Shown: positions 1,323 through 7,886 of the stretch, piece by piece
Layout: every line of letters starts with the position of its first letter
Numbering within the stretch: position 1 is the first letter of the stretch
Assembly (NCBI GenBank): GCA_004293725.1
Contig: REAW01000013.1
Location: 65,037-129,036 of the forward strand
DNA: 64,000 nucleotides
Direction of reading: 5' to 3'
Source: Curvibacter sp.
GTDB lineage: Bacteria; Pseudomonadota; Gammaproteobacteria; Burkholderiales; Burkholderiaceae_C
The notes under the pieces: model-generated
What the model was told of the DNA's origin: nothing
What the model saw: only the letters and a program-made list of their open reading frames with translations
The model's database searches: none
Program-made: the position numbers and the translations under genes

Positions 1323-3710
1323 TCACTCCACCCGTGTAATCCGGTTCGGCTTGAAGCCCAGGTCCGCCGCCTTGCCCTTGCGGCCGCGCGCGGCGCGGGC
1401 GTTGTTGAGGCTGCGGATTTCCAGGGTTTCATCGCGTTCTTTGCCACCGCGGCCTATGCCGTCAATGCGGATGCTGCGGGTATAGGCGGCAGCACCGGCC
1501 AGGGTGTCTTTGGCTTCAAGGTCGATCAGCATCAGGCCACGCCCGCCCTTCTCCATGGTCTTGAGCTCAGTGATCTCAAACGTAAGGATGCGCCCGCCAG
1601 TGGACGCGCAGGCCACGTGGGTTGCAGCGGCCACCACGCTGGCAGGCGTGCCCGCCACCGCAACCTTGCCATGCGCACCGGCCACCACGGAAGGCGCACA
1701 AAGGGTTTCACCTTCGGCCACACCCACAAAGGCCTTGCCCGCTTTTTGGCGCGACACCATGTTCTCCACGCTGGCAATAAAGCCATACCCGCCCGAACCG
1801 GACAGAAGCAGCGTAGCGGTGGCGGGCCCGGCAAAGTAATAGAGCAGTTGGGTTCCGGTTTCCAGTTCGATCAGCGTGGTCACTGGCTGGCCATCGCCCC
1901 GGCCACCGGGCAACAGCGATACAGCCACAGAATAGATGCGCCCGTTGGAGCCGAACACTAACAGCGTGTCCACCGTGCGGCACTCAAACGTGCCATACAG
2001 GCCGTCACCCGCCTTGAAGGCGAAGGTGGACGCCTCGTGGCCATGGCCGGTGCGTGCGCGCACCCAGCCTTTTTCAGACACCACCACGGTCACGGGCTCG
2101 TCCACGACCTTGACTTCGGCAATGGCTTTCTTCTCGGTCTGGATGAGTGTGCGGCGCGGGTCGGCAAATACCTTGGCGTCAGCCTCGATCTCCTTGACCA
2201 TGAGGCGGCGCAGCGCGGCGGGGCTACCCAAAATTTCTTCGAGCTTGCCTTGCTCGGTGCGCAACTCGGCCAACTCTTGTTCGATCTTGATAGCTTCCAG
2301 ACGTGCCAGTTGGCGCAGGCGGATTTCGAGAATGTCTTCTGCTTGGCGGTCCGAGAGACGGAAGCGTTCAATCAGCGCGGCCTTGGGTTCGTCCGACTGG
2401 CGAATGATGGCAATTACTTCGTCGATGTTCAACAGAACGGTCTGCCGGCCCTCCAAGATATGGATGCGGTCCAGCACCTTGTTCAGGCGGTGACGGCTTC
2501 GCTTCTCGATCGTGGTCTGGCGAAACGCAATCCACTCGGTCAGCATCTGGCGCAGCGACTTCTGCGTCGGCCGGCCATCCAGCCCCACCATGGTGAGGTT
2601 GATGGGTGAAGACGTTTCCAGACTTGTGTGGGCCAGCAGCGCCGTGATCAGTTCCTGCTGCAGGGTGCGGCTGGTCTTGGGCTCGAACACGAGGCGCACC
2701 ATGGCGTCTTTGTTCGACTCATCGCGCACCACATCCAGCACGCTGAGGATGATGGCCTTGAGCTGCGTCTGTTCTTGCGACAAGGCCTTCTTGCCGGCCT
2801 TGACCTTGGGGTTGGTCAGTTCTTCAATTTCTTCCAGCACACGTTGGCTGCTTACGCCCGGCGGCAGCTCGGTAACGACCAGCTGCCACTGGCCGCGGGC
2901 CAGGTCTTCGATCTTCCAGCGGGCACGCACCTTTAGGCTGCCACGGCCGGTGCGGTAAGCATCGGCGATGTCACTGGCCGGGCTGATGATCTGGCCGCCG
3001 CCGGGGAAGTCGGGGCCGGGCACCAGAGCGTAGAGCTCGGCATCTGCCAACGCAGGCGTCTTGATGAGTGCCACGCAGGCATCGGCAATCTCGCGCAGGT
3101 TGTGGCTGGGAATTTCGGTGGCCAAGCCCACCGCAATGCCGCTGGCGCCATTGAGCAGGCTGAAAGGCAGGCGCGCGGGCAACTGGCAGGGTTCTTCGGT
3201 AGAGCCGTCGTAGTTGGGTTGAAACTCCACGGTGCCTTGGTCGATTTCTTCTAGCAACAGCGTGGTGATTTTGGCCAGGCGCGCTTCTGTGTAACGCATG
3301 GCTGCGGCGCCATCGCCGTCACGCGATCCGAAGTTGCCCTGGCCGTCTACCAGCGGGTAGCGTTGAGAAAAATCTTGCGCCATGCGCACCAGCGCGTCGT
3401 ATGCCGACTGGTCACCGTGCGGGTGAAAGCGGCCCAGCACATCTCCCACCACACGGGCGCTTTTTACCGGCTTGGCACCAGCGTTGCCATTAGCGCCGCC
3501 AAAGCCCAGCCCCATACGGGACATGCTGTACAAAATGCGACGCTGTACGGGCTTGAGGCCATCGCACACATCGGGCAAGGCGCGGCCCTTGACAACAGAG
3601 AGCGCGTATTCGAGGTAGGCGCGTTGGGCGTAGGTGGCCAGGTTCAGTTCGTTGTCATCGCCAGGGGTGGCGGGATCGGGGGTCAGATCGAGCGTAGTGG
3701 GGTCTGTCAT
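1323..3710 (-). CDS. parC: DNA topoisomerase IV subunit A
   Basis: Protein of 795 residues. ParC is the breakage-reunion subunit of topoisomerase IV, which decatenates daughter chromosomes. The N-terminal part contains [13 protein letters not shown], the winged-helix segment [19 protein letters not shown] and the catalytic tyrosine in [10 protein letters not shown] (Tyr140). The position matching E. coli ParC Ser80 is Gln101 here, and Glu84 is matched by Asp105. The C-terminal part has degenerate blades rather than the regular GyrA-box repeats, which favours ParC over GyrA. Its neighbour on the same strand, two genes upstream, is parE, with a lytic transglycosylase between them. Confidence 0.95.
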
Positions 3711-3716
3711 GTGGGT

Positions 3717-4571
3717 TTAGTCAGCTTTCGGGGCTTCTGGCGCAGGCAGGCCTTGCAAGGGCGCCACCATGTTGTTGCGGCCAGTGGGCATATTCAATAT
3801 GTAGGGGTCGCGGGCGCCAGCCAGCACATAGCCTTCGCCATAGTTGGCTCTTACGCGTCCGCCGGGGGATTGGTGCACTTGCGCCACGGGCACCGGCACA
3901 GGTTTGAGAGCGGCATACAGCTCACTCACGGTTGCCACGTAGTTTTGGGTTTCCTTGAAGTTGGGCACCTTGTTACCAGCGCGCTGCACGGCGCCTTCTC
4001 CGGCGTTGTACGACGCCAATGCCAAGTCCAGCCTGCCGGGGAACATGTCAATCAGCAGACGCAAGTAGCGCGTACCCAGGTGGATGTTGATCTTGGGGTC
4101 GACCAGCTTGGCCTCAATCGACAGCCAGCGATCGCTGTCCACACCAAAGCGGCGCGCAGTGTCCGGCATGATTTGCATCAGCCCGATTGCGCCCTTGGGT
4201 GACACGGCGGCGGGATCGAAACCTGACTCGGCGGCTACCAGGGCCTGCAGTAGCTCGTAGTCCACCCGAAAGCGGGCGGCGGCATCCTTGAGCAACGGCC
4301 GAATCTTGTGGTACCGGGGAGAGGACTCAAAGAACTGGCTCAACTTGGGGTTGACCTCTGGCGCTGCAGGGGCTGCAGGGGCTGCTGGCAACGCGGCGCC
4401 CGGGGCGGCGGCCCGCACCGGCGCCCTGTAGAACAGGCTGTAGCGGGAGTCCACCTGTTGGGCGGAGAAATGGCTATGGCCCTGTTCGTCCACCCACACC
4501 CAGACATCTGCCTTGGCATGAAAAGAGGCTATAGCCCCCATCAATATTGCGCAAGCAGCTATATTTTTCAT
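3717..4571 (-). CDS. Periplasmic lytic transglycosylase (SLT domain, DUF4124-like N-terminus)
   Basis: Exported murein lytic transglycosylase, about 284 residues. It cleaves the MurNAc-GlcNAc bond to give anhydro-muropeptides. I start at ATG 4571 (MKNIAACAIL) rather than the TTG of the ORF track, because this gives a clean signal peptide ending FHAKA. Residues about 23-50 (VWVWVDEQGHSHFS) look like a DUF4124 segment, followed by an Ala/Pro linker. The SLT domain covers about 92-220, with catalytic Glu115 in AAESGFDP, then GLMQIMPDTA and ASYNAGEGAV. It sits between parE and parC on the same strand, touching parE. Its signal peptide is encoded by a copy of the dispersed repeat (4518-4577). Confidence 0.88.
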   Translation of the reverse strand: MKNIAACAILMGAIASFHAKADVWVWVDEQGHSHFSAQQVDSRYSLFYRAPVRAAAPGAALPAAPAAPAAPEVNPKLSQFFESSPRYHKIRPLLKDAAARFRVDYELLQALVAAESGFDPAAVSPKGAIGLMQIMPDTARRFGVDSDRWLSIEAKLVDPKINIHLGTRYLRLLIDMFPGRLDLALASYNAGEGAVQRAGNKVPNFKETQNYVATVSELYAALKPVPVPVAQVHQSPGGRVRANYGEGYVLAGARDPYILNMPTGRNNMVAPLQGLPAPEAPKAD

Positions 4572-4576
4572 AGCAA

Positions 4577-4577
<1 letters not shown>
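4518..4577 (-). repeat. Dispersed palindromic repeat, copy A (encodes a signal peptide)
   Basis: Read on the minus strand it begins TGCTATGAAAAATATAGC, a hairpin head GCTAT/ATAGC, then TGCTTGCGCAATATTGATGG and a tail GGGGCTATAGCCTC. It matches copies in mutL, miaA and the intergenic copy at 44.6 kb. It covers almost the entire signal-peptide coding region of the lytic transglycosylase. It is read in the same frame as the copies in mutL, miaA and amiC (GCT at codon start). Confidence 0.75.
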
Positions 4578-6547
<1,970 letters not shown>

Positions 6548-6580
6548 GGGATGGAATTGTAGTGCGGCCTCAGGATATGA

Positions 6581-6596
6581 CTGTATATATATACAG
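6581..6596. promoter_or_regulatory. Perfect LexA (SOS) box between parE and an MFS gene
   Basis: CTGTATATATATACAG is a perfect 16-bp palindrome fitting the beta/gamma-proteobacterial LexA site CTGT-N8-ACAG, and identical to the core of the E. coli consensus. It is 34 bp upstream of the parE ATG and 76 bp upstream of the divergent MFS ATG, so it could repress either. On the parE strand a possible -10 (TACAAT) lies about 8 nt before the ATG, with its -35 region overlapping the box. That would give a near-leaderless mRNA. The site is seen directly; LexA control is inferred. Confidence 0.6.
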
Positions 6597-6671
6597 ACTC
6601 CAGAAGCAAGCGGCTCCGAGCTTGTCACCCCGGCAGCAGCGAGAAGCCGACAAACGGGCTACATTTCAGCG

Positions 6672-7886
6672 ATGTCTTTAGCCCACAAACCGATATCGAT
6701 TATCCAAATTCTGGTCTGCGGTGCCACGATTGTGACCCTGTCCATGGGCATTCGGCATGGTTTTGGTCTATGGCTCCAGCCTATTACCCAAGCACAAGGC
6801 TGGACACGCGAGACCTTTGCCTTTGCCTTGGCCATACAGAATCTGGTGTGGGGCCTATCGGGCATATTTGCCGGTATGGTGGCCGACCGTTACGGCGCCT
6901 TCCGCGTGGTGGTGGTGGGTGCGGTGCTCTACGCGCTGGGCCTGATAGGCATGGCCTACGCCAGCACCCCGTTGCTGTTTTCTCTGTCCAGTGGCGTACT
7001 GATTGGCATGGCGCAAGCGGGCACCACCTATGCGGTGATTTATGGCGTGATTGGGCGCAATGTTCCTCTGGAGAAGCGTTCTTGGGCCATGGGCGTAGCA
7101 GCTGCAGCAGGGTCGTTTGGGCAGTTTTTGATGGTACCTACCGAGGGTTACTTGATTAGCAGCCTGGGCTGGCAGGAGGCTCTGGTGGCACTGGGCGCCG
7201 CCGCCCTGCTGATGATTCCACTGGCATGGGGACTGCGCGAACCCGGCTTTGGCGGGGCCACGCCGCCCCCACGTGAGCAGACAATAGGACAGGCGCTGCG
7301 AGAGGCGTTCAAGTACCCCAGCTTTCAGTTGCTGATGGCGGGTTACTTTGTTTGTGGATTTCAGGTGGTGTTCATTGGAGTGCACATGCCCAGCTATCTG
7401 AAAGACAAAGGGATGTCGCCCCAAGTGGCCAGTTACGCACTGGCATTGATTGGTTTGTTCAACGTGTTTGGCACCTATGCCGCCGGTGTGCTGGGCCAAA
7501 AAATGGCAAAGAAAAACATTCTTGCTTTTATCTACTTGGCGCGTGCGGTGGCCATCGCCGTCTTTTTGACCGTGCCTTTGTCACCCGCGAGCGTCTACGT
7601 GTTTTCGTCTGTTATGGGGTTGCTGTGGCTGTCTACCATCCCCCCCACCAACGCCACTGTTGCCCAAATTTTTGGCGTGGCGCACCTCTCCATGCTGGGA
7701 GGGTTCGTTTTCTTCAGCCACCAGATTGGCTCTTTCATGGGGGTCTGGATGGGTGGTTACCTCTACGACAAGACGGGCAGTTACGACATCGTCTGGTACA
7801 TCGCGATTGGGTTGGGTGTGTTGGCCGCATTGGTAAATCTGCCAGTGCGTGAAGCCCCAATCCAGCGCACAGCATTGGCCCACTGA
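6672..7886 (+). CDS. MFS transporter, monocarboxylate/oxalate-formate antiporter-like
   Basis: Inner-membrane permease of 404 residues with about 12 hydrophobic segments. I start at ATG 6672 (MSLAHKPISI); the longer track ORF runs back through the LexA site and into antisense parE. ITQAQGWTRETFAFALAIQN and the loop DRYGAFRVVVVG after TM2 are typical of the oxalate/formate antiporter and monocarboxylate branch of MFS. HMPSYLKDKGMSP marks the start of the second half. The substrate is unknown. It is followed after 1 bp by a small ORF and then an SDR on the same strand. The gene may be under the LexA box at 6581. Confidence 0.8.
   Translation: MSLAHKPISIIQILVCGATIVTLSMGIRHGFGLWLQPITQAQGWTRETFAFALAIQNLVWGLSGIFAGMVADRYGAFRVVVVGAVLYALGLIGMAYASTPLLFSLSSGVLIGMAQAGTTYAVIYGVIGRNVPLEKRSWAMGVAAAAGSFGQFLMVPTEGYLISSLGWQEALVALGAAALLMIPLAWGLREPGFGGATPPPREQTIGQALREAFKYPSFQLLMAGYFVCGFQVVFIGVHMPSYLKDKGMSPQVASYALALIGLFNVFGTYAAGVLGQKMAKKNILAFIYLARAVAIAVFLTVPLSPASVYVFSSVMGLLWLSTIPPTNATVAQIFGVAHLSMLGGFVFFSHQIGSFMGVWMGGYLYDKTGSYDIVWYIAIGLGVLAALVNLPVREAPIQRTALAH

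Follow-up and report, generated by a model that had tools for sequence, protein, structure and literature searches.

The window, by which we mean the whole 64,000-nucleotide stretch of the Curvibacter sp. contig that was analysed, carries the genes for both subunits of topoisomerase IV in one co-directional cluster, and a transporter gene diverges from the upstream end of this cluster. The features on which the analysis rests are the following.

1323..3710, minus strand: parC, topoisomerase IV subunit A, over the cut-off of TIGR01062 (parC_Gneg), 6 nt downstream of the transglycosylase gene
3717..4571, minus strand: SLT-domain lytic transglycosylase (Pfam PF01464, 2.9e-30), 5 nt downstream of parE
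4577..6547, minus strand: parE, topoisomerase IV subunit B, 656 aa, best hit TIGR01055 (parE_Gneg), 2e-211
6556..6561, minus strand: TACAAT, the predicted -10 hexamer for parE transcription, separated from the box by 19 nt and from the ATG by 8 nt
6581..6596, minus strand: LexA operator of the parE promoter, the perfect palindrome CTGTATATATATACAG, with binding predicted from a lexA-promoter PSSM and conservation
6672..7886, plus strand: divergent MFS transporter (PF07690), judged not to be the target of the box

The ParE protein scores 703.8 bits against TIGR01055, for which the cut-off is 723.35, and is 98% identical to ParE of Rhodoferax sp. TS-BS-61-7. Together with the transglycosylase gene and parC, parE looks like the head of a single transcription unit, and in most relatives parC is likewise co-directional with parE and downstream of it. 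SLT genes or other insertions occupy the interval between parE and parC in many relatives. The divergent gene had been taken for an MFS pump in the initial annotation, a description that does not hold up well, since the nearest NCBIfam models of its product are L-lactate and oxalate/formate carriers and the protein stays below every curated cut-off; it is probably a carboxylate-type (monocarboxylate/oxalate) carrier more than a drug pump.

Read directly from the sequence, the 16-mer CTGTATATATATACAG is exact at 6581-6596, leaving 33 bp to the parE ATG (6547). It has the palindromic CTG-N10-CAG core and the AT-rich centre of the operator form. No other match with three or fewer mismatches was found in the window (0.01 expected from shuffles), and the 2.95-Mb genome, a draft that is 82.65% complete, holds a single exact copy; at two or fewer mismatches there are four sites genome-wide against none for a reversed-pattern control. 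We drew the LexA regulon of this genome from matches to the pattern CTGTN8ACAG and scored them with a PSSM built from 45 sites, all of them in lexA promoters. The parE box came out at the top of all these genomic sites with 26.6 bits, the runner-up reaching 23.1, which bears out the earlier description of an ideal LexA site.

Layout of the parE promoter

When 112 distinct upstream regions that carry the box were aligned on it, a second conserved element emerged. A -10-like hexamer is present between the box and the ATG in all 112 of them, compared to 3.9% in shuffles. The hexamer is TACAAT in 107 of the 112 promoters, lies 19-20 nt past the box in 97, and is separated from the ATG by 8 nt in 79; several genomes have a gap of 3 nt instead of 19-20 nt between the box and the -10. 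This element was detected by alignment alone; the scan with the sigma-70 consensus called no parE promoter, the -35 region being weak and holding no good recognisable hexamer. Because of the position of the -10, transcription would start at the ATG or within a few bases of it, and the promoter, both here (6548-6561) and in the 112 relatives, appears nearly leaderless.

LexA sitting on the box would cover the -35 region of this promoter. The suggestion that the site is placed to block parE transcription is supported by the conserved TACAAT 19 bp downstream of the box. We considered and rejected a more distant start codon, a GTG at 6628 that would put the box inside the coding region, since homology with relatives sets in at the ATG at 6547 and the -10 falls downstream of the box and ahead of this codon.

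Conservation of the box and the cognate LexA

In each of the 30 same-genus genomes, parE has a box that scores 12 bits or more and whose near end is 24-35 bp from the start codon. Among 32 named Comamonadaceae, a parE-proximal box of at least 10 bits is found in 26, and in 27 if it may lie anywhere within 250 bp; in the family-wide sample the box is present in 82 of 148 genomes. Only 1 of 48 other named Burkholderiales has a box at the parE-proximal place, and of upstreams shuffled with a first-order Markov model 1.45% score 10 bits. For the remaining genes of these loci, a box occurs in 15 of 163 upstreams, most of which are the parE/MFS box seen from the opposite side; once this shared box is excluded, the rate falls to a few percent. 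The initial annotation had proposed looking at close relatives, and those with the same gene order keep the site, so the objection from absence falls away. Comparative genomics strongly supports LexA control of parE.

In the aligned parE upstreams the inner bases of the box vary and CTG-N10-CAG is kept. The half-site GCATCCAG is frequent in parE boxes and recurs in the recA boxes of the family. The parE box is weaker in many relatives, where half-sites read CTGG or CCAG, a pattern suggestive of tuning. LexA control of parE would not be universal in the family, because 56 lexA-bearing genomes, mostly on the Rubrivivax/Roseateles-like side, have no parE box. Outside the family, two Janthinobacterium loci (L082 and L084) have almost perfect LexA boxes, scoring 25.8 and 22.9 bits, about 80 bp before parE; this distance is unlike that in Comamonadaceae, and the boxes are possibly an independent gain.

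The source genome encodes a LexA (G000 C4:71253-71900; TIGR00498, 3.2e-68; PF01726) with a recognition helix near-identical to that of E. coli LexA (FKSANAAEEHLQAL here and FRSPNAAEEHLKAL in E. coli), and its lexA promoter has LexA boxes of its own. Further strong boxes precede umuD-like, imuA-like, comM, radA and alkB-like genes, all scoring below the parE box; the imuA-like ORF has no Pfam hit and we take it to be imuA from its sequence. The boxes before the alkB-like gene, comM and radA (G000 C23:215729, C21:57064 and C21:74495, respectively) suggest that the SOS regulon is not the same as in E. coli. A separate strong LexA box of 20.6 bits (G000 C21:41465-41480; L249 2466-2481) is flanked by a DUF4007 gene and, in divergent orientation, by a methyltransferase-like gene, where an SOS-controlled defence or mobile locus is possible.

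Ten sampled family genomes lack lexA, defined as having no canonical lexA over the curated cut-off, and none of them carries the parE box, compared to 82 of the 138 lexA-bearing genomes (Fisher p 2e-4, relatedness ignored). Most of the ten keep a TACAAT-type -10 shortly before the ATG. On the ParE tree, the joint loss of lexA and box amounts to approximately two independent events inside the box-bearing clade, and a phylogenetic sign test is non-significant and with so few events cannot reach significance. We therefore rejected the co-loss as formal proof, as the Fisher value fails once independent events are counted, and read it as supporting evidence for LexA at this box. Canonical lexA is missing altogether in at least two Comamonadaceae lineages, and the family genomes G099, G112, G147, G150, G167, G198, G228 and G249 are without it at 98-100% completeness. 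The recA promoter of G099 (L303) has a low box score too.

Proposed regulation and alternative explanations

From the position, conservation and promoter context of the site, we consider it very probable that the LexA operator belongs to parE and that LexA represses parE through it until DNA damage occurs, upon which topoisomerase IV would rise. In an undamaged cell, repressor covering the -35 region would keep parE transcription low, not off, and the transglycosylase gene and parC would probably be repressed along with it. RecA assembled on single-stranded DNA would then trigger LexA self-cleavage and free the parE promoter. Since parE heads the tight parE-transglycosylase-parC cluster, induction may extend to both subunits of topoisomerase IV, and the additional enzyme could provide extra decatenation when recombination or stalled forks leave sister chromosomes interlinked. 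Damaged cells of the Rhodoferax-like source organism and of most of the family probably make more of this enzyme. To our knowledge, parE and topoisomerase IV are essential in the bacteria studied so far, and an essential gene bearing a perfect operator requires either leaky repression or another promoter.

This essentiality also favours a different reading, in which LexA binds with little consequence, parE being near maximal expression already or served by a second promoter, so that SOS induction is negligible. E. coli ssb offers a comparison, its SOS box being on record together with decades of work asking how much the box contributes (PMC9505508). We regard a negligible effect at parE as unlikely, given that the box and its spacing have been conserved over the long term despite sequence turnover, that the box is absent from every lexA-lacking genome, and that promoter calling between parE and the MFS gene gave no strong second promoter.

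The palindrome might instead be bound by a regulator other than LexA, such as a class II activator, for which the centre of the box, at approximately -40 to -41 relative to the predicted transcription start, would be well placed. However, the motif matches the lexA and recA operators of the same genomes, including the GCATCCAG variant, the 3-nt gap between box and -10 seen in several genomes fits a repressor and not a class II activator, and none of the sampled genomes without lexA carries the box. No regulator other than LexA is known to us to use a CTG-N10-CAG site, and we consider this explanation very improbable.

There is similarly little to recommend the option, raised in the initial annotation, that the box serves the divergent MFS gene and that a transporter, not topoisomerase IV, is the SOS target. 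In most Comamonadaceae the gene that diverges from parE is an MFS gene, and a palindrome could act in both directions, but the distance from the box is fixed on the parE side (median 33 bp, IQR 33-34, sd 5.4) and ranges from 44 to 774 bp on the MFS side. The box at parE is kept at five loci without a detected MFS neighbour (L009, L028, L031, L034 and L146), a divergent MFS gene occurs without the box at three others (L014, L044 and L156), and the conserved -10 is directed at parE in every one of the distinct promoters. On spacing, gene content and promoter direction, the target of the box is parE and not the MFS gene.

That the palindrome is a chance AT-rich sequence or a core promoter element can be dismissed almost entirely: its TATATATA centre does look like a -10, but so close a match is hardly expected by chance in the window, the conservation pattern, with the site kept across relatives although its centre varies, rules out a chance palindrome, and a separate conserved -10 is present and is retained in box-less genomes. 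Judged by this conservation, the parE palindrome is a genuine LexA operator.

Comparison with known SOS systems

With the SOS regulon of E. coli and most Gamma- and Betaproteobacteria, the system described here shares the CTGT-N8-ACAG operator, the LexA recognition helix, self-regulated lexA and recA boxes and typical partners, namely the umuD-like, imuA-like, comM, radA and alkB-like genes. The difference lies in parE, which is no SOS target in E. coli and a conserved one in Comamonadaceae.

The LexA of Alphaproteobacteria recognises a motif that differs from the CTGT-N8-ACAG type. An origin of the Comamonadaceae box independent of that in the alphaproteobacterium Sinorhizobium meliloti is likely, because nearly all other sampled Burkholderiales are without a parE box. 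In S. meliloti, parE has likewise been reported as SOS-regulated, under LexA, according to a paper that cites this result (PMC3323433). The same paper surveys the predicted SOS regulons of multi-chromosome Betaproteobacteria, Variovorax paradoxus among them, and deals with the same class and motif and includes one species of Comamonadaceae; in its text, parE goes unmentioned for the class.

In Streptomyces venezuelae, parE also belongs to the LexA regulon and decatenation after damage has been proposed, with a motif that differs (TCGAACTTACGTCC) and a box at -157 (PMC9380542). Bacteroidetes have an SOS-regulated parCE operon with mitomycin C induction confirmed by RT-qPCR, and so resemble the present case in that a single SOS-controlled unit encodes the two subunits of topoisomerase IV; their repressor is a non-canonical LexA-like protein, and a CTAA-N5-TTAG motif served to predict the operon (PMC8565304). 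The literature searched contained no account of LexA-controlled parE in Comamonadaceae, though a regulon database may already list such a prediction. The initial annotation had presented parE as an addition to the regulon outside the classic SOS genes, and this stands as far as the lineage is concerned and does not as regards the gene, given the earlier reports of parE or parCE in the three groups above.

Topoisomerase IV is a target of quinolones and is not under LexA in E. coli. If its synthesis is tied to damage throughout the family, exposure to quinolones and other damaging agents could lead these cells to make more of the agents' own target, and leftover chromosome links would be treated by the cell as a standard consequence of damage. 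We lean towards a family-wide view in which both topoisomerase IV subunits were part of the ancestral SOS regulon of Comamonadaceae, through the LexA operator of a nearly leaderless parE promoter that arose separately from those of Alphaproteobacteria, Streptomyces and Bacteroidetes. If this is true, induced decatenation would be a recurring, convergent arm of the bacterial response to DNA damage, and similar control in three unrelated groups would indicate that decatenation has been recruited repeatedly into the SOS response. Set beside these systems, parE of Comamonadaceae is well supported by comparison as the extension of a recurring SOS target to a further lineage, and not as a new kind of system.
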